Shown: piece by piece, positions 12,801 through 60,800 of the stretch | Numbering within the stretch: the stretch's first letter is position 1 | How the letters are laid out: each line of letters opens with the position of its first letter | Origin: Nemopilema nomurai | Taxonomy: Eukaryota > Cnidaria > Scyphozoa > Rhizostomeae > Rhizostomatidae | Reading direction: 5' to 3' | Length of the DNA stretch: 64,000 nucleotides | Assembly (NCBI GenBank): GCA_003864495.1 | Contig: ML133471.1 | Span: 3,160,257-3,224,256, forward strand | Notes under the pieces: generated by a model | What the model was told of the DNA's origin: nothing | The model's input: only the letters and a program-made list of their open reading frames with translations | Databases searched by the model: none | Position numbers and translations under genes: made by a program

Positions 12801-15800
12801 GCGATTCTGAAAACAACCAGCCTAATCTTCAATTTTAGAGTAGCTAATGTCCAGTGAAGAGTACATAATACTGTTAGTCAACTAGTGTTATCGTTTTGGC
12901 CAGATTGAGGGCCACACAATGTCAGTGATTGAAGGTAGTTGTTCATGTTTTCTTTTGTTCTAGGGAAGAGGAGCTATAACGTCCCTACATCTTACCGAGG
13001 TGATTAATTTTTGAAACATTTGATTAATTTTATGGCTCACTATGTGCTACGCCTTGAAAGAGGCAGGCCTTAGCTACGATCTCCTGAGGGGAGCATGTAT
13101 ATTGCGGACAGGTTAATGAATTATGTCAGTACTGAAACCAATCCTTGCTGATGGAGATACTCGACTTCTTACCATAGTTCATGTTATTCATTATCAAAAT
13201 TGACTACTGCTAGGCCTGTCAGATTATATTGTCACTTTTCGCACTTTATATGATAAGAGTTATTTGTTTCATATAGAAATACGTTATTGCATCTGGAAAG
13301 GAAGTGAACATGATCCGCGTTGATAAAGAGAGATGCGAGACAAAATACCTTATGTGCAGGTAGAGTAAACATTTTTTCGGATATTTCATCCTGAGAAGAT
13401 CTCAAGAAGATTTTCAATCCTTACTCTGCGTGGCGTCCAAAGGAGGAGGACAAAAAGCGACTTCGTTTACGTGCTTCTGTCAAAATGCTACATTCTAGCG
13501 TTGTGTTGTCGGTATAGAACCAGGAAAGGTTTAGCAACTTTCAGTTTGTGGAAGATTCGAAACTAGGCCAGCTCGACAACCTCAAGCTCTTACCAAGGCA
13601 GTCATCCTAAAGCCTTGTGCTAATGCTGGTGCGGTCATCCTACCAATGCTAATAACTTTGTGGAAGCCATTAGTCACCCGCCGCCCGCGATTTTTGATAC
13701 GTAGGATAGCTGATGTTGTTTTTTCTTGGTAGGGACTGTTTGAAGGCCAGAGATCCGTTTTGCGCTTGGAGTGTCAGCCAAAAGAAGTGCACAAGGACTG
13801 CCGACTTGGCACCCTCGTAAGTGATTCACTGTTTTTGAAATGGGCACGATCTGTTGATCAGCTGATTGCCGTATGAATTTTTTGGACGGGAAGCTGATGC
13901 TTTTGATGTATGATGGCCAAGAGGCAGCCTCAGTTGGCTAGTCATGTGAGCCACTGTCACTTTGTATTGAGGCTTTGAGTCAGAATACGCTGCTCACCCA
14001 TTAGTTTGGTTATGTTTCAGCGATCGTGTGCAAGACGTCGAAAGTGGCAGCGATAAGAAGTGCCCTCCAGGTTCGTTTCTGTCTGCAGTTTTATGAATAA
14101 TAACCCGTCGGCCCTAACCCGTCGGCCCTAACCCACTAACTTGGGGTACCACGTTTGCGGCTGTGTTGCACGGAGCGTGATTCCCACAAACCTGTTTCCT
14201 TGCAAGGGCAGGTGGACTTGATTATGTCCGCGGTTAAGGCTGCCCCGGGAAAATGATGTCCCTGTACTTCATTTGAGTCATTGGTTTGAGAAACTGCACG
14301 GCCCTCTCTACCTTGAACTCGAGAAGTGACCGCTGCGAAGTGATGGGTCCATCATTTGCTTTGTCCATGACGTAATTAAAGCACCAGGCTCCTTGGTTAA
14401 AGCTGAATTGCTTCCATTTCATTTCAATTAAATGCCGGCCGCGCCGAGTTGCTTCTATTTCAATATGGAGCATTCGCCCATGATGCAACACTTTTCCAAG
14501 GCTTAGAAACTGCAATGAAAGTACACGTGTTTAAAAGGCGTGTATTTGTAGGCTAGAGAAAAAAGTAAGGAAGTTCATTGTGCAAGAGTGATCGCTTTCA
14601 TTTCACCAAGCCACATCCTTACTATGGCACTTCATGCCTCATCTCGGTCTTGGCATCAACCGATCCACCAACTCATTTGTGCCTTTCCGGCACTTTGTTT
14701 CAAGGAAGTTATTTTACTTTTATCCAGAACGTCAGATTTTTTTAAAGCCATTTCAGTTTTACCATTATTTCATGTTTATATGCTCATGCTTGTGTCGATT
14801 CTGTCGGCATGCTCTTCGGAGAACCCATTGTTACTCATCTCATTTTTGTTGCCTAGTGGACGTGAATATATCTTGCTCCCTTACCGTTGTCGATAACATC
14901 CCTGGCGCTTGGACAGCGTTGCAATGTACGGGTCATGGTAAGATCGCTCCGAAAGTTCTAGCATGGAAGAAAGACCAGGCGCGCCTTCACGTAGACCAAA
15001 GCATTTATGAAATCAGGCAGATTAACGCATCATCTCAGCAGTTGATTATTAAGGGGTACACTACGAAGGAGCTTGGCACCTACGGATGCGTTGTTGGGCT
15101 AGAGAAGAACAAATCAGAGTGCTCTATTCCAATAAAAGGTTTGTTGACAAGCGTCTCCCAAAATGTACCCAATTTGTTTCCATAACCTGCTCATCACTCA
15201 ATGTTAGCCAGGAATAGCCCCTCCTAGAAGTACCGGCTAGAAATGGTTGTTTTACGCCATTATTTCATACCAACATTTGTTATGCACTAGTAAGAACACT
15301 CTTGGTGTCTCAGTGTTATCAGTGTTTCAAGAGCCAGTGTATTGTCAATGTACTAAGCCTCCGTCCCTAGGAGACATTTTTCTTGTAAGCAGCGCCAATG
15401 CCGACCCTTCCCGTGTTGCAACGAGCGCTGCAAGCACTTTGCTGCATGCAACTTGCACATTGTAGGTGTACTAATTGTTCTGCCAATGTCGCTATAACCA
15501 ATGGCAATTAAGGAACCGGTTGAGATTTGCAAACCCATTACCATTTCGAGAAGTAGTAGCACTTTTCCCGCTCAATCGCGCCTTTTCCCGCCCAATCGCG
15601 CCCTATTAAACAACGTGTTCGTGCCCTGTGTTGTTCGTGCTTACACTGTTTCGTCTCTTTGTGCCTCCTCCCTTTCTCCTCCGTATCCTTTCATCTCCCC
15701 CATCTGCCATTAACAGCTAAGCCATAGTAAATAAAAGTTACTTTGAATCAGGTGATCGTAAATCAATGACCAATGAAAGAGATGATTGTAAAGAAATACT

Positions 15801-25282: not shown

Positions 25283-28200
25283 ATGGAGGTCATTCGAAGG
25301 ATCATCAACTTCCTTTTCTTCGCCAACATTCTTCATTTTGCTGAAATGATTCCATGCAATACAACCAAATTATGTATGGTTCGCCTAAACCTCGCACAAG
25401 AGATGCATTACATGCAGGAGAATGATAATTGCCAGGACGTTTACAAGAAGAATTGCATTTGTCAGCAACCGATCGACATCCTTTTTACGGAAACACCGCC
25501 TTACATTTACACGGATCCCACCACCCGCAAAGTTGCCGGGCTTATCCCAGGTATCTCATTCTCATTCGGTCTGCACTCGCTGAATAAAGTTTTGTCGAGG
25601 GGAGAAATAAACAGAGGGGGGGGGGGCAAAACCATTGCTAGTTTTAAGACGTCATTGCCATTTTCAGAGCTGCAACCAAAGTGAAACTGTATGAATGAAG
25701 TGGGGCGAATGTCGTTTAATCAAAATTGACTTACAGAAGACCACCTAATCATATCTCCAAGTCGCTAACAATATGTTCAAGTGTCTGACCACGTGGCTAA
25801 CCTTTCTTTGTGTCATGTAAACTCTCTGTTCAAGATGTATATTTCATACCTTTATCCCTGTCAATATGTTGCAGGAATATTGAAACAAGCACTGGCTTCC
25901 TGCTGCCTTCACTCCAACTGCACGACGGTGAATTATTTGAAGCCCTTCGCGTCGTCTCTGGAGGCCCTTGTAACGTTGAAGGCGGCGACGCTGCTGACAC
26001 CGTACGCAACGCAAAGCGGAGCAGAAACCTCCCTGACCAATAGTTTTATAGAGCTCATTAAGTGTCGAGGTGTGTCCTACCTCACAAGTGAAGACATGAG
26101 CTACTCCTCGTTCGCAAGGTTCTTCGTCTCCGTTGGGTCCAATTGGCCCCTGTTCGGTCTGTCTTTGTTGCTTGCATTGGATGCCGGAATTGTTATCTGG
26201 CTACTGGTTAGTTCTTGCTCCTGATGTATGTTTAGGTGCAAGCTTGTCTTTTCCATGCAGAGAGCGATATCATACTAACGCTTGTGCCCTGTATCGCAAT
26301 GTATACTGAGATGCTAATGTGAACATGATTTTGCCAAATTATAGACAACATGGCTTCAAATGGTCTATCGCTTTATTTACAGTCAATTTGTTTAGATAGG
26401 GATGAAGCAATGTACAGATGCTAAATGCGATTAACAAATCTGATAGCACAGTTTTAGTATCCAATCAAAGTAGGAAAGGGTACTCTAGAGCGTTGATTTT
26501 AAAGCTCCGTTGACTATTTGAGGTTTTGAATATTGAAAACCTGACGTCAGCTCTGGTATTACGTTTGTCTGAAACATCGATTTTATACAAAGAGATTTTA
26601 CACTCATGAAAGTTTTGTACACTGTGCAAGCTGTCTCGTTATGTATACTACCCTAGCTGTGATATATGACAACGATGCTTGCTCGAAGGGACTGTTCGTG
26701 AGGACCCAAGCTGTCCATCCATGCAGCGTTTGCAATTGTCTTAGAACGGTTTCGCATCCTCAGACAGGGTGGCAATATCTGAAGTGCGGATCTATGTTGA
26801 AGATCACCCTTTTAGTGGTTTACGGTGAAGGATAAATATTAAAACACTTGCGCTTTCTCATTCTTCAAAGAATCTTACAAGTAAGAAGCGATTGTTGGCC
26901 CTTTTCAGTTTAGTGACGGACCATCTTCTAACCCACGATAGATTGCCATCTAGTCTTGGTCCTGATGTAATCTTCTGAGGCTAGGTGCGGCACGTAATGG
27001 CCTTTTTTGGTGTAATATTTCATTTTATTACTCTATTCGGTGGCAGTGTTTCTTAGCTTCTATGGCCTACCTTAGTTACCCAATAGTTACCTAAAGACGT
27101 AACAAAGTTTTGAAATTTTACAGATTTTATCGTGCAATCTGTTTATGGAATTACATGATATCTTTCGGATTCATAGAGATTATTCAAATCCGTTTGCAAT
27201 CCTTAGGACTCTTCACAAAACCAGAAAGATTTCCCCCCGAGCTTCAGGGATGGCATCATAGAAGGAACGTGGTGGGCATTTGTGAGCATGACAACCGTCG
27301 GGTAACTACAAAACTGATCATCTTGACATTCGTTTCTATTTGAAATTAAGCCTTCAATATACTCTACCTGTTTTCATCATCAAGCGCTTTGTACAAACGC
27401 AAACTCGACCGGTAATTAATGTTTGATGAGTTGTTCGTTGTTATCTGTCTCTACCTGTCTATATAAATATCGTTGCAACTCAACCTTCAGCTTGTGGAGC
27501 AGACGATGACCAAAGGATATCGTAAAAGGATATCGTAAAAGGATATCGTAAAAGGATATCGTAAAAGGATATCGTAAAAGGATATCGTAAAAGGACATCG
27601 TAAAAGGATATCGTAAAAGGATATCGTAAAAGGACATCGTAAAAGGATATCGTAAAAGGATATCGTAAAAGGACATCGTAAAAGGATATCGTAAAAGGAT
27701 ATCGTAAAAGGACATCGTAAAAGGATATCGTAAAAGGACATCGTAAAAGGATATCGTAAAAGGATATCGTAAAAGGACATCGTAAAAGGATATCGTAAAA
27801 GGACATCGTAAAAGGATATCGTAAAAGGACATCGTAAAAGGATATCGTAAAAGGATATCGTAAAAGGACATCGTAAAAGGATATCGTAAAAGGATATCGT
27901 AAAAGGACATCGTAAAAGGATATCGTAAAAGGATATCGTAAAAGGATATCGTAAAAGGATATCGTAAAAGGACATCGTAAAAGGATATCGTAAAAGGATA
28001 TCGTAAAAGGACATCGTAAAAGGATATCGTAAAAGGATATCGTAAAAGGACATCGTAAAAGGATATCGTAAAAGGATATCGTATATGGATATCGTAAAAG
28101 GATATCGTAAAAGGATATCGTAAAAGGATATCGTAAAAGGATATCGTAAAAGGATATCGTAAAAGGATATCGTAAAAGGATATCGTAAAAGGACATCGTA

Positions 28201-31200
28201 AAAGGATATCGTAAAAGGATATCGTATAATGGATATTCGTAAAAGGATATCGTAAAAGGATATCGTAAAAGGATATCGTAAAAGGATATCGTAAAAGGAT
28301 ATCGTAAAAGGATATCGTAAAAGGACATCGTAAAAGGATATCGTAAAAGGATATCGTAAAAGGACATCGTAAAAGGATATCGTAAAAGGATATCGTATAT
28401 CGTAAAAGGATATCGTAAAAGGATATCGTAAAAGGATATCGTAAAAGGACATCGTAAAAGGATATCGTAAAAGGATATCGTAAAAGGATATCGTAAAAGG
28501 ATATCGTAAAAGGATATCGTAAAAGGATATCGTAAAAGGATATCGTAAAAGGATATCGTAAATGGACATCGTAAAAGGATATCGTAAAAGGACATCGTAA
28601 AAGGACATCGTAAAAGGACATCGTAAAAGGATATCGTAAAAGGATATCGTAGGATATCGTAAAAGGATATCGTAAAAGGATATCGTAAAAGGATATCGTA
28701 AAAGGATATCGTAAAAGGATATCGTAAAAGGATATCGTAAAAGGATATCGTAAAAGGATATCGTAAAAGGATAATTGTTTTAGTCAACTCAAAGTTGCGC
28801 CAAGGTCCTTGTGTATATGGCAATTCATCTGCTTCCATCTTCTCTCGGCATTTGCCAGTTGGGTTACCCATAGCAGTAGACACACCATGGTTAATAAGCC
28901 GATACGCTGTATGTCTTATAAGCCTGGGACGACAAGGGCTTTTGAGCTTCAAGACTTATTTCTTAATGTCGTTGTTCTGTTCATAAGATACTGATGATCA
29001 TCAACCTCAAATCAATTGTCCCCTGAAGGTGCTAAAAGATTAACACAATATTGATAAAATTACTAACAAGACCAATATTGTACAGGTCTGTTTTTTAGAG
29101 CCCCCAAGGAACCGGGGGCTAGCTGATCGCTCCTGTCCCCACTTTAAGCCTAGGCCGGTATGATAACAGCATTGTCCGGTTCTGTCGCGCCCTGTCGCAG
29201 TGCAGCCCCCTTGAGTGGAGCTTTTTGTAATCGAGGTTCTTTTGTATACGACAGGTATGGCGACAAGACTCCAAAAAGCCTCTTCGCTCGGATTTTTGGC
29301 ATCCTCTGGATTACAGTCGGCATCTCTCTCTGCGGAGTATTCACCGCATCTTTGACAACGGGAATGACTCAATCGTTCATCGAACAGGAACTGTCTCTTT
29401 CTGGCAGAAGGGTAATACTGCAATCTCACAATAACGTTTAATGCTTAACTCTGTAAATGTTGATTAAAGGATTTATGCCACCTATTTTACTATGTCATTT
29501 TATTGATGCTTTCAGTGGGAAATAGGTCAAAATTAGGTATTTTGAAGTTTTTCGACAAAAATTCTATTTGGAGGGGGCCGTGCACACAATTTTACGAAAA
29601 TATCACGTGACCGCGTGACGTAGAAGTTGACAATCTGAGACCGGCCTACACTAGAAACGTACAGGGCTTCCGACTACTCGCGCACAAAAAGGATCTGGTT
29701 TGCTAAAAATGAGTGGTTCCGAAACAGATTTGGTTAATGGCGATAGCTATGGGATGGAAGTTGTACCTTACAACTTTGAACCACATTTACGAAGGGATAA
29801 CGCGGCGAATGACGGGACTTCAAGTTCGTCAGGATCAGACTAGGAACGTGGTAATGAGGAAAACGAGATGGAGTTAGAGCAAAGTTATCGAATTGGGAAT
29901 ACTGAATGATATGTTTTTTTCACTTTTACTCGAAAAATGCATGATATCAGATCACGTATTAATTTCGGCTCTTTAACAAAACCTTTTCATTCCTTTTGCA
30001 TTAAATTTTTGCTTGGGTTGGAAGGTTGGTTGTACATACTGGTTTTGAAACTAGACTTTAACAATTATTAATTTTACTCGTTCAGTTATAGAACATCCAA
30101 AAAATCTTGGATGATTGATAATACAGCATAAAAAATTTTTATGTGCACATGCGGAAGTTGTGTAGTTGTGGTCCACGGGTTGTGGAGAAACAGGCTGATG
30201 GCTGATGCAATCCCCAATATTTTTCATGTGTCTATTGCCTTGTCAGTATATAGTTATTAAATGGGCTCCGACGCAGGTTGGAAAGTGGAGGGGCAAAGGA
30301 AGACTTTAACAATCACAACAAAAGATATTTAGAAAAGCTCTATTGTTTTACAAAAAAGTGCGGGGGCCACTCCCCCCCCCCCCGGATCCCTTTCGTCGGA
30401 GGCCCTCAAGTTAATAGAACCTAAGAATAAGTAAATTTTGAGTGCCGACAATCTCTTGACTGCCGACTTACACTAAAACATTCTCACTATATTTGTGCCA
30501 CCCAGAGCTTCCGCAAAGTTCCGTCCCGTGGAAATTTGTGATGTCTGTCGGCACTCCCCGTACTGCGGGCGTGCACCCGTTGGCAATACAATTAGGCATA
30601 TTTTTCTAATTTCAAAGGATCTCTTAATTTCAAACCAATAAATTATTATTTTACAAAAATTTGGATCCATACTTATGAAAAAATTCCAAAAGAAATGATG
30701 CCCAAGTGCACTTACCGGGTAGAAGGCCTATAATGCCTACAGTGCGGAGGTTGTCAACTTTTACGTCACAGCATCACGTGACGGGTTTCCCGCCAAAATT
30801 TGAACGATCGTTTTGGGGGCTTTAAATACCCCATTTAGTGAAAATATTTTGCAGATATGTTCAGATAATCATTACTTACCATTATCAAACGAAAAAAATT
30901 TGGCGCCAAATTAGGTGGCATAAGTCCTTTAATAATGGCAAGTTGGTTGATCAGTAATGGTGCTGAACCTCATTTTCCCATCTTAATCAAACTAGAACAT
31001 CAGAATGTACTTTTTACAACTTGATAATCTTTTGAGCATTTTCGGACATTGAATCGCTTTGTTTTGACATCTGTCATTGGCCTTGTCATAAGAACATTAA
31101 ATGTTGCAATGTGGGCCCCATTCACAGTATCTTCTCCTGTTTGCCGCATGAATGTTCACCTAATCATTAATCACCTAATACGATTGATTAATGTGATTAT

Positions 31201-33846
31201 TGTGATTGATTTGATTGATTCCATTGATGTGATTGATTCCATTGATATGATTGATTCCATTGATGTGATTGATTCCATTGATGTGATTGATTCAATGGAT
31301 GTGATTGCTCAACAGGTCGGCGTCTTGAATAAAACGACTTACGAAAAGAACATTGCAATGAGGGAAGGAGCAAAAGTCACAGGTAGCAGCCAGCACTGAA
31401 AGATTAATGAAAATAAGCTACTTCCTTTAGAAATGTTCAAGGATTCAGGAATTTTTTCATCGTGTTATCGTTTCACCGTTCTTTTACGTGGCCAAAGAAG
31501 TTTTTCACACCTTCGGCAAATGAAAATCAAAGAACAGTCTCATTTTTATTTTTATTATTTTTCTTAAAAGCTTTTGAGAGTTTTCAAGTCGAGAGCTGAA
31601 ACCTAGTCCAGAGCATTGTGCTACTATTTTCGCTCCCAGATCTCTTTGGGCACATGTATGGGTGAAACCAGAAAATCCTACTATTTTGCCTGGATTTTTG
31701 CTGATGAATAAACTATTTAGCCTCGGCCTGTTTCCTTATCAACACATATACGAAGCTATCATCTTTTGCTATAAAATTGTGCACACCTTTTTCAGCTTTT
31801 TCCACATATGAGGAACTGAAGGGTGCTCTGATCAATGAAAAGATTGAAGGTAATGCTTCACTGCAATATGGGCTGTAACTGATTTTCTTCATTAACCCCT
31901 TCGAATCTTAGAAATTTCTATTAGGTACAGATTCCAGGTGTAAATCTGGGACTATGGGGCTTTTCTTCTCTTTTTCAAAGAATGTCCAAGTTCACTAATC
32001 TACAATTTCTATTAGTTGTTCTTTCTCCTCATTCAGCAGGTCTCTCGCATGCTTGCATTTTCTGGCTTCAACATTGTTTAGAGCTACATACTTGCAATGA
32101 AAACGTACTCTTATGCCCATGTATTATTACTTATTGGACTGCCTTGAAATTGGTCCCCAGGTATTGTTATGGACTCACTCACACTGAAGTACTATGCGGA
32201 GGATTTAGAGAATTCCGTCGACAGTTTCCATGCTCGTTCGAATTTCCTGGCAAATTCACCCACAAGCTATGGCTTGCTGTTTTCTTTGGATCGAAAATCA
32301 AATCAAACAAACAGAATGTGGGCAGATTTCTTGAAAGGGTTTTTCGATGAGAATAAAGACAACGTCGATCTGATGCTGCAAGTTGCCGAAGAAGACCTCC
32401 CTGTCACGGTATGTTCGAGGCACACGTGTCTTGCTTCAGGTCGTTGTGCGAGATCGTCGTGCTTGTTTGGCGCCTTCGACGCATCTCAAATACCTCAATG
32501 GCGATTCTTGTGACTCATTTTTGCAAAGCTGCCATTTTTTGGGTCATACGAATCTTGATAGCTGTCTGTCATCGAATGGTTTTAGTGTTTCACCAGACAG
32601 TGGCCTGGCCTGCAGTTTTATGCTCCTCCAGCTGGCAGTGTGTACCACGCAGTTGACATCACATTTGTTCCCCTTTTCTGATTCTTGGCTTCATCATGGA
32701 GCTCTTGGTGCCTAGAGGCAGGCCATTCGTATTCTGTTAAACTGTATACTGACAAACACAATCGGCATGAATATCTTGTCGGTCAGTTCATCTATTAAGA
32801 AACGGCGCGTGAAAGGCATCTTCTGATGTGTTCATTGCCTTTACCACCACTCCTTTGTCATAAAATGAGTTCATTTGATCATTTCAGCTACACGCCGCGC
32901 ATAAACACGGCAGCTCATCTGGGGAATCGTTGTTCAACGAGCCAACCGTCTATATGATGCTCTTTCGATATGTTGGACTCGCAACATTGGGTTTGTTGAT
33001 CTTTGGGTTTGTTTATGAAAGACTGTGGCTTGCAATCAGGTATTACAAGGCCTCTAGACAAGAGCGATGGATTAACAAGATAGGTTTGTATTTACTTCTA
33101 GCAATTTTGTACTCTCTTAAATCAATCACAAGGCTGTAAAGAAAGATATTTGAGTCTAAGTGTTATGGTTTTCCGACATTGACTGTAAGGAGTTAGATGT
33201 AACCATTTGGTTAAAAAATTATCAATCTCCGTATTCTATCTTGCATTCGTCTATACTCAGGTAAAAACATGAGTGAACTTGTTACTTTCAAGGTGCGTCA
33301 TTGGTGTATTTCCCCCTAAGTTTAGCTTGTTCTTTCCCAATGACTCTTTATGACCTGAAAAAACTGTTTATGTTATTGACATATCTCTTCTTTGATGAGT
33401 ATGAATGCATCATCTATCAAATAACTGTTTATGTTATCGACATATCGCTTCTTTGATGAGTATGAATGCATCATCTATCAAAAAACTGTTTATGTTATTG
33501 ACATATCTCTTATTTGATGAGTATGAATGCATCATCTATCAAAATTTTAGAAGACGAACCCCGACAAAGCCTGCGCCACCGACAAAGTCACGTGCAATTG
33601 CTCGACCCAGGGACGATATCGAGGCTGCAGGGCCGATTCAAAATCGTCATGAAGGAAATCGAAATTGAAGATGGCTGCAAAGACTATTCACAGATAATCG
33701 AAAAGATCAATCAAGAGGTCTTTGAGTCGGGCAATTTTTCGTGCCCAGAGCAAAACGTTCTGATTGAGTTGGACGAGTTGAAGTCCCAAGGCAATGGTGT
33801 GTCGTCTGCGCAAGCCAAAATCAGCAGGCCGAAGCAAGGAGAGTGA
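25283..33846 (+). CDS. ionotropic glutamate receptor-like channel with K+ selectivity filter (TTVGYGD)
   Basis: Predicted ligand-gated K+ channel subunit at the plasma membrane. Exons: 25283-25550, 25875-26206, 27207-27301, 29255-29411, 31316-31382, 31796-31849, 32161-32408, 32888-33083, 33551-33846. Phases match at every junction and the total is 1713 nt, 570 aa. Residues 1-21 look like a signal peptide. S1 covers about 60-178 (ILFTETPPYIYTD and GLIPGILKQAL match the start of iGluR S1). TM1 is about 179-200. The pore has TWWAFVSMTTVGYGDKTP, filter 229-235. TM2 is about 242-267 and ends VFTASLTT, like the iGluR SYTANLAA gate. S2 is about 285-425 and includes MDSLTLKYYAED, matching the ligand-contacting Asp region of NMDA-type S2, then SYGLLFSLD. 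TM3 is about 429-457, followed by a 113-residue hydrophilic tail I do not recognise. Prokaryotic GluR0 and the bdelloid receptor AvGluR1 have this architecture. The S1 arginine that binds the ligand carboxylate is not evident. There is no N-terminal ATD. Confidence 0.85.
27511..28773. repeat. 13-bp minisatellite, about 95 copies, in the filter-splitting intron
   Basis: Head-to-tail AAAAGGATATCGT, with AAAAGGACATCGT as the only common variant and rare length variants near 28081, 28225, 28396 and 28648. It fills two thirds of intron 3 of the channel gene. The 13-base period cycles through all three frames and lacks stops on the minus strand, so minus-strand ORFs of up to 490 codons (FYDILLRYPFT repeats) are artefacts. 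Confidence 0.97.
29465..30933. mobile_element. TTAA-flanked DNA transposon remnant (Kolobok- or piggyBac-like ends)
   Basis: The ends are inverted: TTAAAGGATTTATGCCACC at the left (from 29465) and its near-perfect complement ending at 30933, each abutting TTAA. Subterminal inverted stretches (CACGTGAC...TGACGTA...GTTGACAA near 29603-29632, and its complement near 30748-30783) support one unit of about 1.47 kb. TTAA target sites are typical of Kolobok and piggyBac. Inside, a reading frame from ATG 29709 is interrupted by TAG at 29841 and continues ERGNEENEMELEQSYRIGNTE to a TGA. The R-GNT-E pattern after an acidic stretch recalls the P2X7-like zinc-finger domain seen in cnidarian repeat-encoded proteins. 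It lies inside intron 4 of the channel gene. Confidence 0.6.
31200..31308. repeat. 18-bp tandem repeat next to a 3' splice site in the channel gene
   Basis: About six copies of GATTGATTCCATTGATGT with small changes. They end about 7 bases before the acceptor AG at 31314-31315. The repeat keeps one frame open (IDSIDV), so an ORF appears to run into the genuine exon. I interpret it as intronic. Confidence 0.85.
33361..33543. repeat. 61-bp direct repeat, three copies, next to the last acceptor of the channel gene
   Basis: Three tandem copies of a 61-base unit containing AACTGTTTATGTTATTGAC and GATGAGTATGAATGCATC, nearly identical. The third copy runs straight into the acceptor at 33549-33550 that opens the terminal exon. 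Confidence 0.9.
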
Positions 33847-57800: not shown

Positions 57801-60800
57801 TGATAATTACTTTTTAAATTTCAGATATAACATACACAGTGTTTTGTAGTTAACTCTAATGTTGAATATCCATTGAAGGCCAACCAAGAAAAACGTGTAA
57901 AGGAACCCTTAGAAAGGCAGCAGTCTGTGGCTTCATTCAATGTTTTGAGGAGGAGTGGGTCCTTTGGAGCTAGTGTTGTATTTTGGCAAGTAAGTGTATA
58001 AGATGTGCTTTTAAATCAAGTTAGATAAGAGTGCATATATAAATAATTTGCTTTAACTTTTCCTTTATCTTGTTCTTGTATTGTAGGCATGGTTTCTCAT
58101 TTTAATGCTGTTTTACTTGTTAAGCTTGAATCATATTGTGAAATTTATTATTCTAACATGCTGTGTATTTTGACTCATTTCAAAGTATTTACAAGTTTGA
58201 TTTTGTATTGTTTTTTGATGAAGATTTTATTGATTTTTTTCCTGATGTTTTTAAAAAACTTAAAAAAGCTTGCTGTTTGGGTCAAAGCCTTATCTTCAGT
58301 AGATGTGACAGCATTTTTTTAAGTCATAGAAATATGAAAATGGCTTTGAAAAAAGCAAGCATTTTACGTCATACTAAAAGCTTTTGGGTCTGACACTCCT
58401 CAGTGCATAAAACGTCAGAATAAGGTTCCGAAAAACACGATGGAAAATATATACCCAGTTGTGGATCGAAATAAGCCAATCAGAAAGACCCAAGCACAAG
58501 ACTGGTATAGTTGACCAATCAGTGCCCCAAGCCTAAGGAAAAATTACCAATGGATTCCAAGAGAGAAAACAAACTCCTTCTCTCTACACAATGGTGGCTT
58601 TTTCGTTTTCATGTAGATCGACTCCAAAACTGCCAGATGGAAGGACGACCGGGCTCTGCCAATTATCCGAAACATGTCACCATTAAAGAGTTTTGCACAA
58701 TCTGGGTTGTCCAAAAGATGTTGACCGATGGCAGAATCACTTATTCTGACGTTTTATGCTCTGAGGAGTGTCAGACGAAAAAGCTTTTAGTATGACGTAA
58801 AATGTTTGCTTTTTTCAAAGCCATTTTCAAATTCTGTACCGCAAAACAATTGTTCTCATAGAAATATCTACAGGATATCTATATTTTTATTGTTTGTTCA
58901 TCTTTTCTGATTCTATTAGTCAATCCCTTGACTAGCTACTTGGAATACCTTTCAGAAGATGTTAAATCAGTTGTTGATGTTAAAACAGGATTTTTAGTAA
59001 CATTCTATTAGCTTTATCCTTGTACATATTGGCACAATCTTTACATTCAGACAATTTCTGAATTTTTAGGCATATTAAGTAGTTAGTGGCTCATGAACTC
59101 CAATGTTTTCAATGAAAAATCCATTTTAAAAGTCCTCTTCAAATTCAACAATGTTGTCATCGTTTTTACATTTGATTTTTTATAGTAACCAGTAAAAATG
59201 TTTCCCAATTATTCTGGTTAAAATTTGGATTTGATTTTAAGGTAAACAGAGGCTTAACTGTAAGCATCCAAGACCTGTCCCCGACCTCTGGCTCTCTAAC
59301 CTTTGCAGATGGAGAGAGCAGCAAAATGCTTAACATTTCAATACAGCCAGACCAGGTATGCTCCCTCAATGGTACCCTATGAAGCGGTAGTGGTGTGCAG
59401 AATGTGAGCCACTAGAAACTGCAAGCAAGCAGGAGCTATGCTATTGTGTCTGCCGGTGTTTAGAATAGCCCACCTTCAGCTGCTAGTAATTCACAATTAC
59501 TTGAATTTGAGTAAAATAAAAATTGTACATGGAGAACTTCCAGGCATTACATCAAACCAATTTCAGATTCCTGTAATGTTGGCTAGTAAATTTGGGTCGG
59601 GCGCTGATGAATCTACTTTTTTCAGATACCTGAAAACGACGAGCAGTACCTAATTGACCTTGTCAATGCAACTGGCGGTGCCTTTATCAACGCTTCATCC
59701 AGCAGAGCGTCTCTCGTCATTCTTAAAAACGACCCACCAGTCCAATTTGAATACCCTGTGCAATACGTCTCTGAATCCCAGACTTTGTCCGTCACAGTGC
59801 TGCGGGGGCAAGGTGCATCCGGGACAACTATTGGGGATATTTCCATTGCCACCAGTGTTTCATACAGCACTTCGGATGGCCAAGCAAAGTCTGGAGTCGA
59901 TTATCAAGCAGTTTCAGGTATTCTCAACTTTGCACCTGACGACACATCCAAATCATTCTCGATTCAAATACTTAAAGACCCTCACCCTGAAGTTGCAGAG
60001 AACTTTTCTGTAGTCCTTTCAAACCCTTCTCCTGGAAGCGTGCTGTCTGCACCATATATCTTGACTGTTGTCATTGGGAAAAATGACGATCCACACGGAG
60101 TGATCTCCTTCAAGTCCCCTGATGAAGTTTTGGTTTTGGATGAAGATTCCACGAGTTCTGGAACTGTGTTTGTCAACAGGTCACGTGGAACATTTGGCAT
60201 TGTTTCCGTTGGCTGGCGTGTCGTCTCTAGTGGCAGACCAACTTCTGTTACACCAACTAGAGTTCTAAATGTCACTGAAGGTCTTCTTGAGTTTGCGCCT
60301 GGCGAAGCCACCCGGTCGATCTCACTTTCTGTCCAACAAAACTCTATCCCTGAAGAGGCGATGGAGTTTTACATACAATTAGAGAATGCAACAGGCGGGG
60401 CGAGACTCAGCCCGATTTCACCCCAGTTGCGCATGCTCGTGAGGGACAGTGATAACGCATATGGTGTGGTGTCCCTGGGAAGTGCTTCTGAGTATAGAGT
60501 TGAACTGGTGAGTCTTGTTCCACTCTGGTTTCGTAGAGCTACCTTGCTTTTTGGCGAAAGACTTGAAGCAGTCGAATATGTAGCAAAATACCCCTTTGGT
60601 TTTCAGCAGTCCGCGGTACCTAATGATATGACGTTTTTAGTTTCAAGAAATGTAAATTGCTTTTGAAGTCTACCAAAGAATAATCATACACCTATTGATC
60701 AACGACCTTCAAGGCTAGGTTGCCACCCTGCCCTAATTAGGTGCCCTCCAGGTTCGCTTTAAGGTTTGCTTATTCAACTTTGTAGTCAAGATCACCTCGC

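Follow-up and report, generated by a model that had tools for sequence, protein, structure and literature searches.

A jellyfish glutamate-receptor-like gene with a complete K+ channel filter and its relatives across cnidarians

The gene and its protein

The window, a 64-kb stretch of the Nemopilema nomurai genome, contains on its forward strand a gene of nine exons (positions 25283-33846) that encodes 570 codons followed by a stop. Splicing is in frame, with an AG acceptor and a GT donor at each internal junction. The features of the gene are as follows.

25283-25550, forward strand: exon 1, signal peptide, Cys-rich N-terminus and beginning of S1 (spliced translation)
25875-26206, forward strand: exon 2, remainder of S1, then M1 (spliced translation; own-genome match to the Rhopilema ortholog, 73%)
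27207-27301, forward strand: exon 3, M1-pore linker, pore helix and filter TTVG up to bases 1-2 of the first Gly codon
27291-27301, forward strand: filter codons, part one (T T V G-)
27302-29254, forward strand: intron 3, phase 2, within the selectivity-filter codons (position common to 19 paralog stretches, by the YGD exon)
29255-29411, forward strand: exon 4, base 3 of the filter's first Gly codon, YGD, M3 and beginning of S2
29255-29264, forward strand: filter codons, part two (-G Y G D)
29340-29360, forward strand: M3 gate motif FTASLTT, residues 261-267 (Thr262 in 50 of 51 aligned family rows)
31316-31382, forward strand: exon 5, S2 (spliced translation)
31796-31849, forward strand: exon 6, S2 (spliced translation)
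32161-32408, forward strand: exon 7, S2, with Asp329 near the exon start
32888-33083, forward strand: exon 8, M4 (hydrophobic stretch 431-457; a helix in the predicted model of the Rhopilema ortholog)
33551-33846, forward strand: exon 9, C-terminal tail and stop (spliced translation)

The closest protein is LOC135687428 from Rhopilema esculentum, which is collinear with the 570-aa model and 72% identical to it across 98% of its length. Because this ortholog shares the start of the model, the latter does not seem to lack an amino-terminal domain upstream. Thus, the phase-consistent nine-exon gene without an amino-terminal domain that an earlier note had read from the DNA is borne out. The riskiest join, TTVG/YGD, lies inside the filter; it recurs in the same phase in paralogs from other parts of the genome, and TTVGYGD is uninterrupted in homologs from other sources. 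Much of intron 3, between the two halves of the filter, consists of a 13-bp minisatellite (AAAGGATATCGTA, 97.6 copies, window 27512-28773). Elsewhere in the window, open frames with Calx-beta domains (59611-60666; E 5.1e-25, two stretches) and with an immunoglobulin I-set match (14592-15185; 1.9e-5) were found, and Rfam at gathering scores yielded nothing within the 64 kb.

Hydrophobic stretches of the protein correspond to the signal peptide (residues 7-25), M1 (182-200), M3 (245-269), and M4 (431-457). The order of parts is signal, Cys-rich N-terminus, S1 (about 61-172), M1, pore loop WWAFVSMTTVGYGDKTP, M3 ending in FTASLTT, S2 (about 276-406), M4, and tail. The S1 - M1 - K+ filter - M3 - S2 - M4 layout of the earlier note, with M3 ending in TASLTT and with a compact S1, is therefore upheld by the hydrophobic stretches, the TTVGYGD motif, and homology. 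M1, the P loop, M3 with its gate motif, and M4, all typical of the iGluR superfamily, are also found as predicted helices and in Foldseek comparisons, their orientation in the membrane being presumed. Pfam matches include Ion_trans_2 (5e-14), Ion_trans (1.2e-5), and Lig_chan (3.3e-7), the last at 30.7 bits, marginally below the 30.8 cut-off; all three are matched by each of the 35 homologs scanned. No Pfam ligand-binding-domain family was found in the 570-aa protein up to E = 1, or in any of these 35 homologs. Sequence searches of the PDB returned only K+ channels, via the pore, in the 60 best rows of 284 and of 411.

Copies in the genome and relatives across Cnidaria

The gene is not alone: about 40 such places, this one included, were counted in the Nemopilema genome. 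By hand count, 29 are separate places with an exon starting at the filter break, and 11 lie in arrays (five in contig C60, six in C73). The count is based on exon-wise searches with the proteins P0001, P0048, and P0008, in which the tool counts are lower bounds; some places are possibly haplotypes (C100 and C130 read alike, and C60 and C73 are perhaps alleles), and one doubtful place (C129:965658) was excluded. An exon starting with YGD is present in 19 of the 20 fetched paralog stretches and in the window, and in all 20 cases the Tyr codon is preceded by AG plus a single base; the twentieth fetched stretch, L032, continues the gene of L031. The first half of the filter, ending in GG/GT, was found by pattern in 10 stretches, the window included, after chance FGD matches (L033, L042) and a first half matched by chance within M4 of the window gene (32963) had been dropped. 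Thus, a phase-2 intron interrupts the first Gly codon of the filter. Three further short stretches are consistent with the same break, and altogether 23 of the 40 places gave a reading of the filter's second half.

The tandem paralogs of the C60 and C73 arrays (L050 and L049, respectively) differ in the filter, TTAG/YGD versus TTVG/YGD. The TTAG/YGD copies might differ in selectivity, or the two might be alleles of one array. A role in chemosensation or as transmitter receptors is suggested by the tandem arrangement of copies and by the divergence of the ligand halves. The same genome also holds a tandem array with 17 matches to ordinary Lig_chan and the pore FFTGEI (G000:C19:6228506-6373930).

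Three homology searches yielded at least 249 different proteins (45 matches; best 120 of 174; best 120 of 267), which leave 149 family rows when 44 bacterial GluR0-type rows and 56 plain K+ channels are set aside. Among the matches listed, the minority of family rows that carry organism names span three cnidarian classes and come from Rhopilema, Nematostella, Actinia, Actinostola, Stylophora, Oculina, Acropora, Montipora, Porites, Pocillopora, Desmophyllum, Dendronephthya, Xenia, Clytia, and Hydractinia; P0002 is presumably from Aurelia, judging by its Gold/UCD label. Members from Nematostella include LOC5513742 and LOC5516852. No named non-cnidarian animal occurs among the family matches listed, in a search that scores only candidates sharing short words. 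With all named members cnidarian and a Rhopilema protein closest, the earlier assignment of the gene to a cnidarian is supported. Database names of members are 'uncharacterized protein', 'Potassium channel domain-containing protein', and 'Potassium voltage-gated channel subfamily A member 10', the last of which is not supported by the layout. One member, P0222 (eukprot gene18225-20043_t, 761 aa), carries CUB and immunoglobulin domains ahead of the same channel, and a similar exon is found in the Nemopilema stretch L046 (C152).

A full-length tree was built from 36 family and 10 bacterial rows by a quick search with SH-aLRT support only, and long branches meet in it (the ena3 and Clytia1 rows and the bacterial outgroup). 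The window protein groups with Rhopilema (support 100), and the four scyphozoan rows group with two further rows (99). Of the four named hydrozoan rows, three join this scyphozoan group (95); the fourth, Clytia1, falls outside with two further rows, and the anthozoan rows form three groups. Five anthozoan rows are grouped with P0008 and P0222 (98), whose close matches in the Nemopilema genome are the C19 and C152 copies. Because anthozoan rows join proteins so close to these copies, more than one such gene was probably present in the ancestor of cnidarians.

Pore, ligand domain and origin

The canonical K+ filter in an iGluR-type layout, the central observation of the earlier note, proves to be a family trait: TTVGYGD is found in 143 of the 149 family rows, the window protein thus sharing the complete TxVGYGD filter of GluR0-type channels. 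TTIGYGD occurs in one row, and the other five have ATVGYGD, STVGYGD, TTVGYGR, or TTVGYRD, or end after TTVG. The broken filters of P0193 and P0199 (TTVGYGR and TTVGYRD) are either sequence errors or point to members without K+ conduction. In comparisons with other pore sets, the family pore profile reaches 216 with bacterial GluR0-type pores, 138 with plain K+ channels, 107 with seven Kv-type rows, and 44 with four ordinary iGluR pores of this genome, values that serve as a guide only, since the sets are not of equal size. No gate of PxP type is found in the 146 family rows or the 44 bacterial rows, whereas 32 of the 56 plain K+ rows have one; the FTA-type pattern occurs in 123, 25, and 12 rows of these three sets, respectively. 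A voltage-gated K+ channel was rejected as an identification: besides the missing PxP gate, Ion_trans matches positions 159-228 of 241 only, and a single hydrophobic stretch lies between the signal peptide and the pore. In a pore-only tree (153 rows, 105 columns), a phylogeny that the earlier note had called for, the family holds together with a support of 74 and is not nested in Kv; this placement is weak, as 68 of the 149 inner branches are open, the GluR0-type rows are scattered, and the position of the family is beyond the resolution of the tree.

The whole region of residues 61-369 matches a profile of 43 bacterial GluR0-type rows with E 5.6e-44. Compared piecewise, S1 matches S1 (5.3e-5), pore matches pore (8.7e-43), and S2 matches S2 (3.4e-10), with low off-diagonal and reversed controls. 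The nearest rows outside Cnidaria, among the matches listed, are bacterial-type proteins with SBP_bac_3 and a K+ pore (E from 6e-38), one of them from Saprospiraceae. This proximity, and the lack of any other named animal among the listed family rows, would be natural if a bacterial GluR0-type gene had been transferred into a cnidarian ancestor, had gained introns and M4, and had multiplied there, its likeness to the rotifer receptor AvGluR1 being convergent. We give such a transfer a substantial chance, somewhat short of even. Against it, family and bacteria are separated in the full-length tree by long branches, 1.04 on each side, with no nesting; M4 is common to eukaryotic iGluRs and lacking in GluR0, according to the available part of PMC11479355; and eukaryotic intermediates could escape a search confined to candidates sharing short words. 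A transfer concerns the origin only and is compatible with a ligand-gated K+ mechanism. Of the two origins proposed in the earlier note, the old lineage retained in some animals survives beside it.

The earlier note had also made its reading depend on a bilobed ligand domain. Such a domain, with S1 and S2 split by the pore segments as in the iGluR superfamily, is predicted with confidence for two diverged members, the Rhopilema ortholog among them, and agrees with the S1-S1 and S2-S2 profile matches. The GluR0 ligand core 1ii5 is the top structural match for two different members but ties with other binding proteins to within about 1 Z unit; both alignments behind the predictions included bacterial GluR0-type rows. 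The top Foldseek matches are whole iGluRs, with low whole-chain TM-scores (0.27-0.46) and rmsd mostly of 9-15.

In sequence, S1 is far less conserved than the pore. Of the 43 bacterial GluR0-type rows, 39 carry the S1 Arg; in the family it forms no conserved column, with at most 9 of 51 rows per column, and it is absent from the window protein and the Rhopilema ortholog. Arg occurs anywhere in that S1 segment in 22 of 51 family rows and one column off the aligned place in nine, mostly those grouping with hydrozoans, and some members may keep the anchor; the test is a sequence alignment that is loose in this segment, where hhalign aligns Ser137 of the window protein with the Arg and the column with nine Arg is 136. 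Since the S1 Arg is not conserved, glutamate is doubtful as the ligand. As the window protein lacks this alpha-carboxylate-binding residue, we do not class it as an amino-acid (glutamate) receptor, and we infer that many members bind something other than an ordinary alpha-amino acid. The acidic S2 residue Asp329 is kept in 39 of 51 family rows (bacterial rows have Asp in 21 of 43 and Ser in 20 of 43), an S1 Pro is near-invariant (47 of 51), and the S2 strands are retained. Among eleven members compared with the window protein, the eight distant ones are 52-62% identical to it in the pore and M3, 11-26% in S1, and 11-41% in S2. The family thus appears to combine one conserved output with many diverged inputs, although such low identities also mean a loose alignment.

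The low identities of S1 and S2, the unconserved Arg anchor, and the lack of a Pfam ligand-binding-domain match in the window protein and in 35 of 35 homologs could also mean that the ligand pocket is degenerate and that the protein serves as a K+ leak channel, or as an auxiliary or assembly subunit, without ligand gating of its own. We consider this unlikely in view of the confident bilobed fold of two diverged members, the retained S2 acid, S1 Pro, and S2 strands, and the roughly 40 diverged copies, which suggest selection for different inputs. Much less credible is the newly assembled animal chimera of the earlier note, an ordinary iGluR that would have acquired a Kv pore. It could account for the full canonical filter and for the K+ channels that are the best single-sequence PDB matches, but it is rejected on the piecewise profiles, which tie S1 and S2 to the GluR0-type set that the pore also matches, on the pore profile scores (with sets of different size), on the gate type, and on the pore tree, in spite of its weak support, and it fits poorly with a family present in three cnidarian classes. 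Finally, a chance or mis-spliced model, in which separate genes or a pseudogene were wrongly joined across an intron 3 of about 2 kb with a 1.26-kb minisatellite inside, has a negligible chance given the in-frame AG/GT joins, the collinear Rhopilema ortholog, the exon break recurring in paralogs, and the filter found in one piece in homologs.

Putative function and comparison with known systems

The most probable action of the protein, in view of its layout and the known behavior of iGluRs and GluR0, would be a ligand-opened flow of K+. We hold with good confidence that it is an iGluR-type subunit of a presumably tetrameric channel, with a bilobed S1/S2 clamshell that would be extracellular, M1, a re-entrant loop with the complete filter TTVGYGD, M3 with the iGluR/GluR0-type gate FTASLTT, and M4. 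Ligand binding would close the clamshell, closure would pull M3 open, and the resulting K+ flow would hyperpolarize or shunt the cell. In the available part of PMC13099474, GluR0 is described as transporting K+, with the ligand domain and both ends outside the cell. A wider proposal, possible but tentative, is that the roughly 40 places in this genome belong to a cnidarian repertoire of ligand-gated K+ channels descended from a GluR0-like receptor that was probably duplicated in the common ancestor, and that they act as inhibitory chemoreceptors or transmitter receptors, many of them for non-amino-acid ligands.

GluR0 and AvGluR1 are the only K+-type iGluRs named in the available parts of PMC12332018, PMC12226733, and PMC11479355. 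In the open PMC literature, which leaves most subscription papers out of scope, no title or abstract among the matches listed deals with K+-filter iGluRs in cnidarians. The main text of a 2018 phylogeny of metazoan GluRs (PMC6307864) contains none of the terms 'potassium', 'selectivity filter', 'GYG', and 'AvGluR1', and a 2024 jellyfish paper (PMC11250803) has, in its available part, no bearing on K+-filter receptors. A family with an intact K+ filter in three cnidarian classes would mean that a whole animal phylum has retained, or reacquired, the presumed ancestral form and has expanded it. It would question the working view of cnidarian iGluRs as excitatory; the available part of PMC13335744 treats iGluRs as considered cation-selective and excitatory. 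With it, simple nervous systems would also gain a set of unsuspected receptors, candidates for inhibition or chemosensation, and the K+-to-cation switch of iGluR evolution would become testable in tractable animals such as Nematostella, Clytia, and Hydractinia. Corals, anemones, hydroids, and jellyfish may use these receptors to quieten cells on signals.

The closest known systems are GluR0 of Synechocystis and the bacterial GluR0-type proteins, which share with the window protein the K+ filter between M1 and M3, the absence of an amino-terminal domain, the predicted bilobed S1/S2 (as the top structural match), and profile homology of all three parts. They differ in that bacterial rows such as P0036 stop after S2, whereas the window protein continues into M4 and a cytoplasmic tail, and in that the window gene is an intron-rich animal gene with a Cys-rich N-terminus and without the conserved S1 Arg. 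The rotifer (Adineta vaga) AvGluR1, likened here by description and not by sequence, is likewise an animal iGluR-type protein that combines a K+ filter with a fourth membrane segment, as far as the available parts of PMC12332018 and PMC11479355 describe it, the latter giving M4 as lacking in GluR0 and present in AvGluR1. However, AvGluR1 binds amino acids (PMC12226733, available part), and the cnidarian channels, which belong to a different phylum, form a large family.

Ordinary animal iGluRs (AMPA, kainate, NMDA, delta, epsilon) have the same S1-M1-P-M3-S2-M4 order and provide the top Foldseek matches. Their gate motif is SYTANLAAF, at whose place the window protein has its FTA gate. In contrast to them, it has a K+ filter instead of the Q/R/N site and no amino-terminal domain, and the pore profile is only distantly similar (44). 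Insect IRs are another expanded, diverged iGluR-type family without the conserved ligand Arg. They are, however, non-selective cation channels that excite, whereas the cnidarian family has a K+ filter; if the proposed function is true, the cnidarian repertoire would be their mirror image. The cnidarian pLGICs, including glutamate-gated chloride channels, also represent a radiation specific to cnidarians, of ligand-gated channels that are putatively inhibitory, but are pentameric Cys-loop chloride channels, according to the available part of PMC13335744. The K+-filter receptors would then provide fast ligand-gated inhibition based on potassium alongside these chloride channels.
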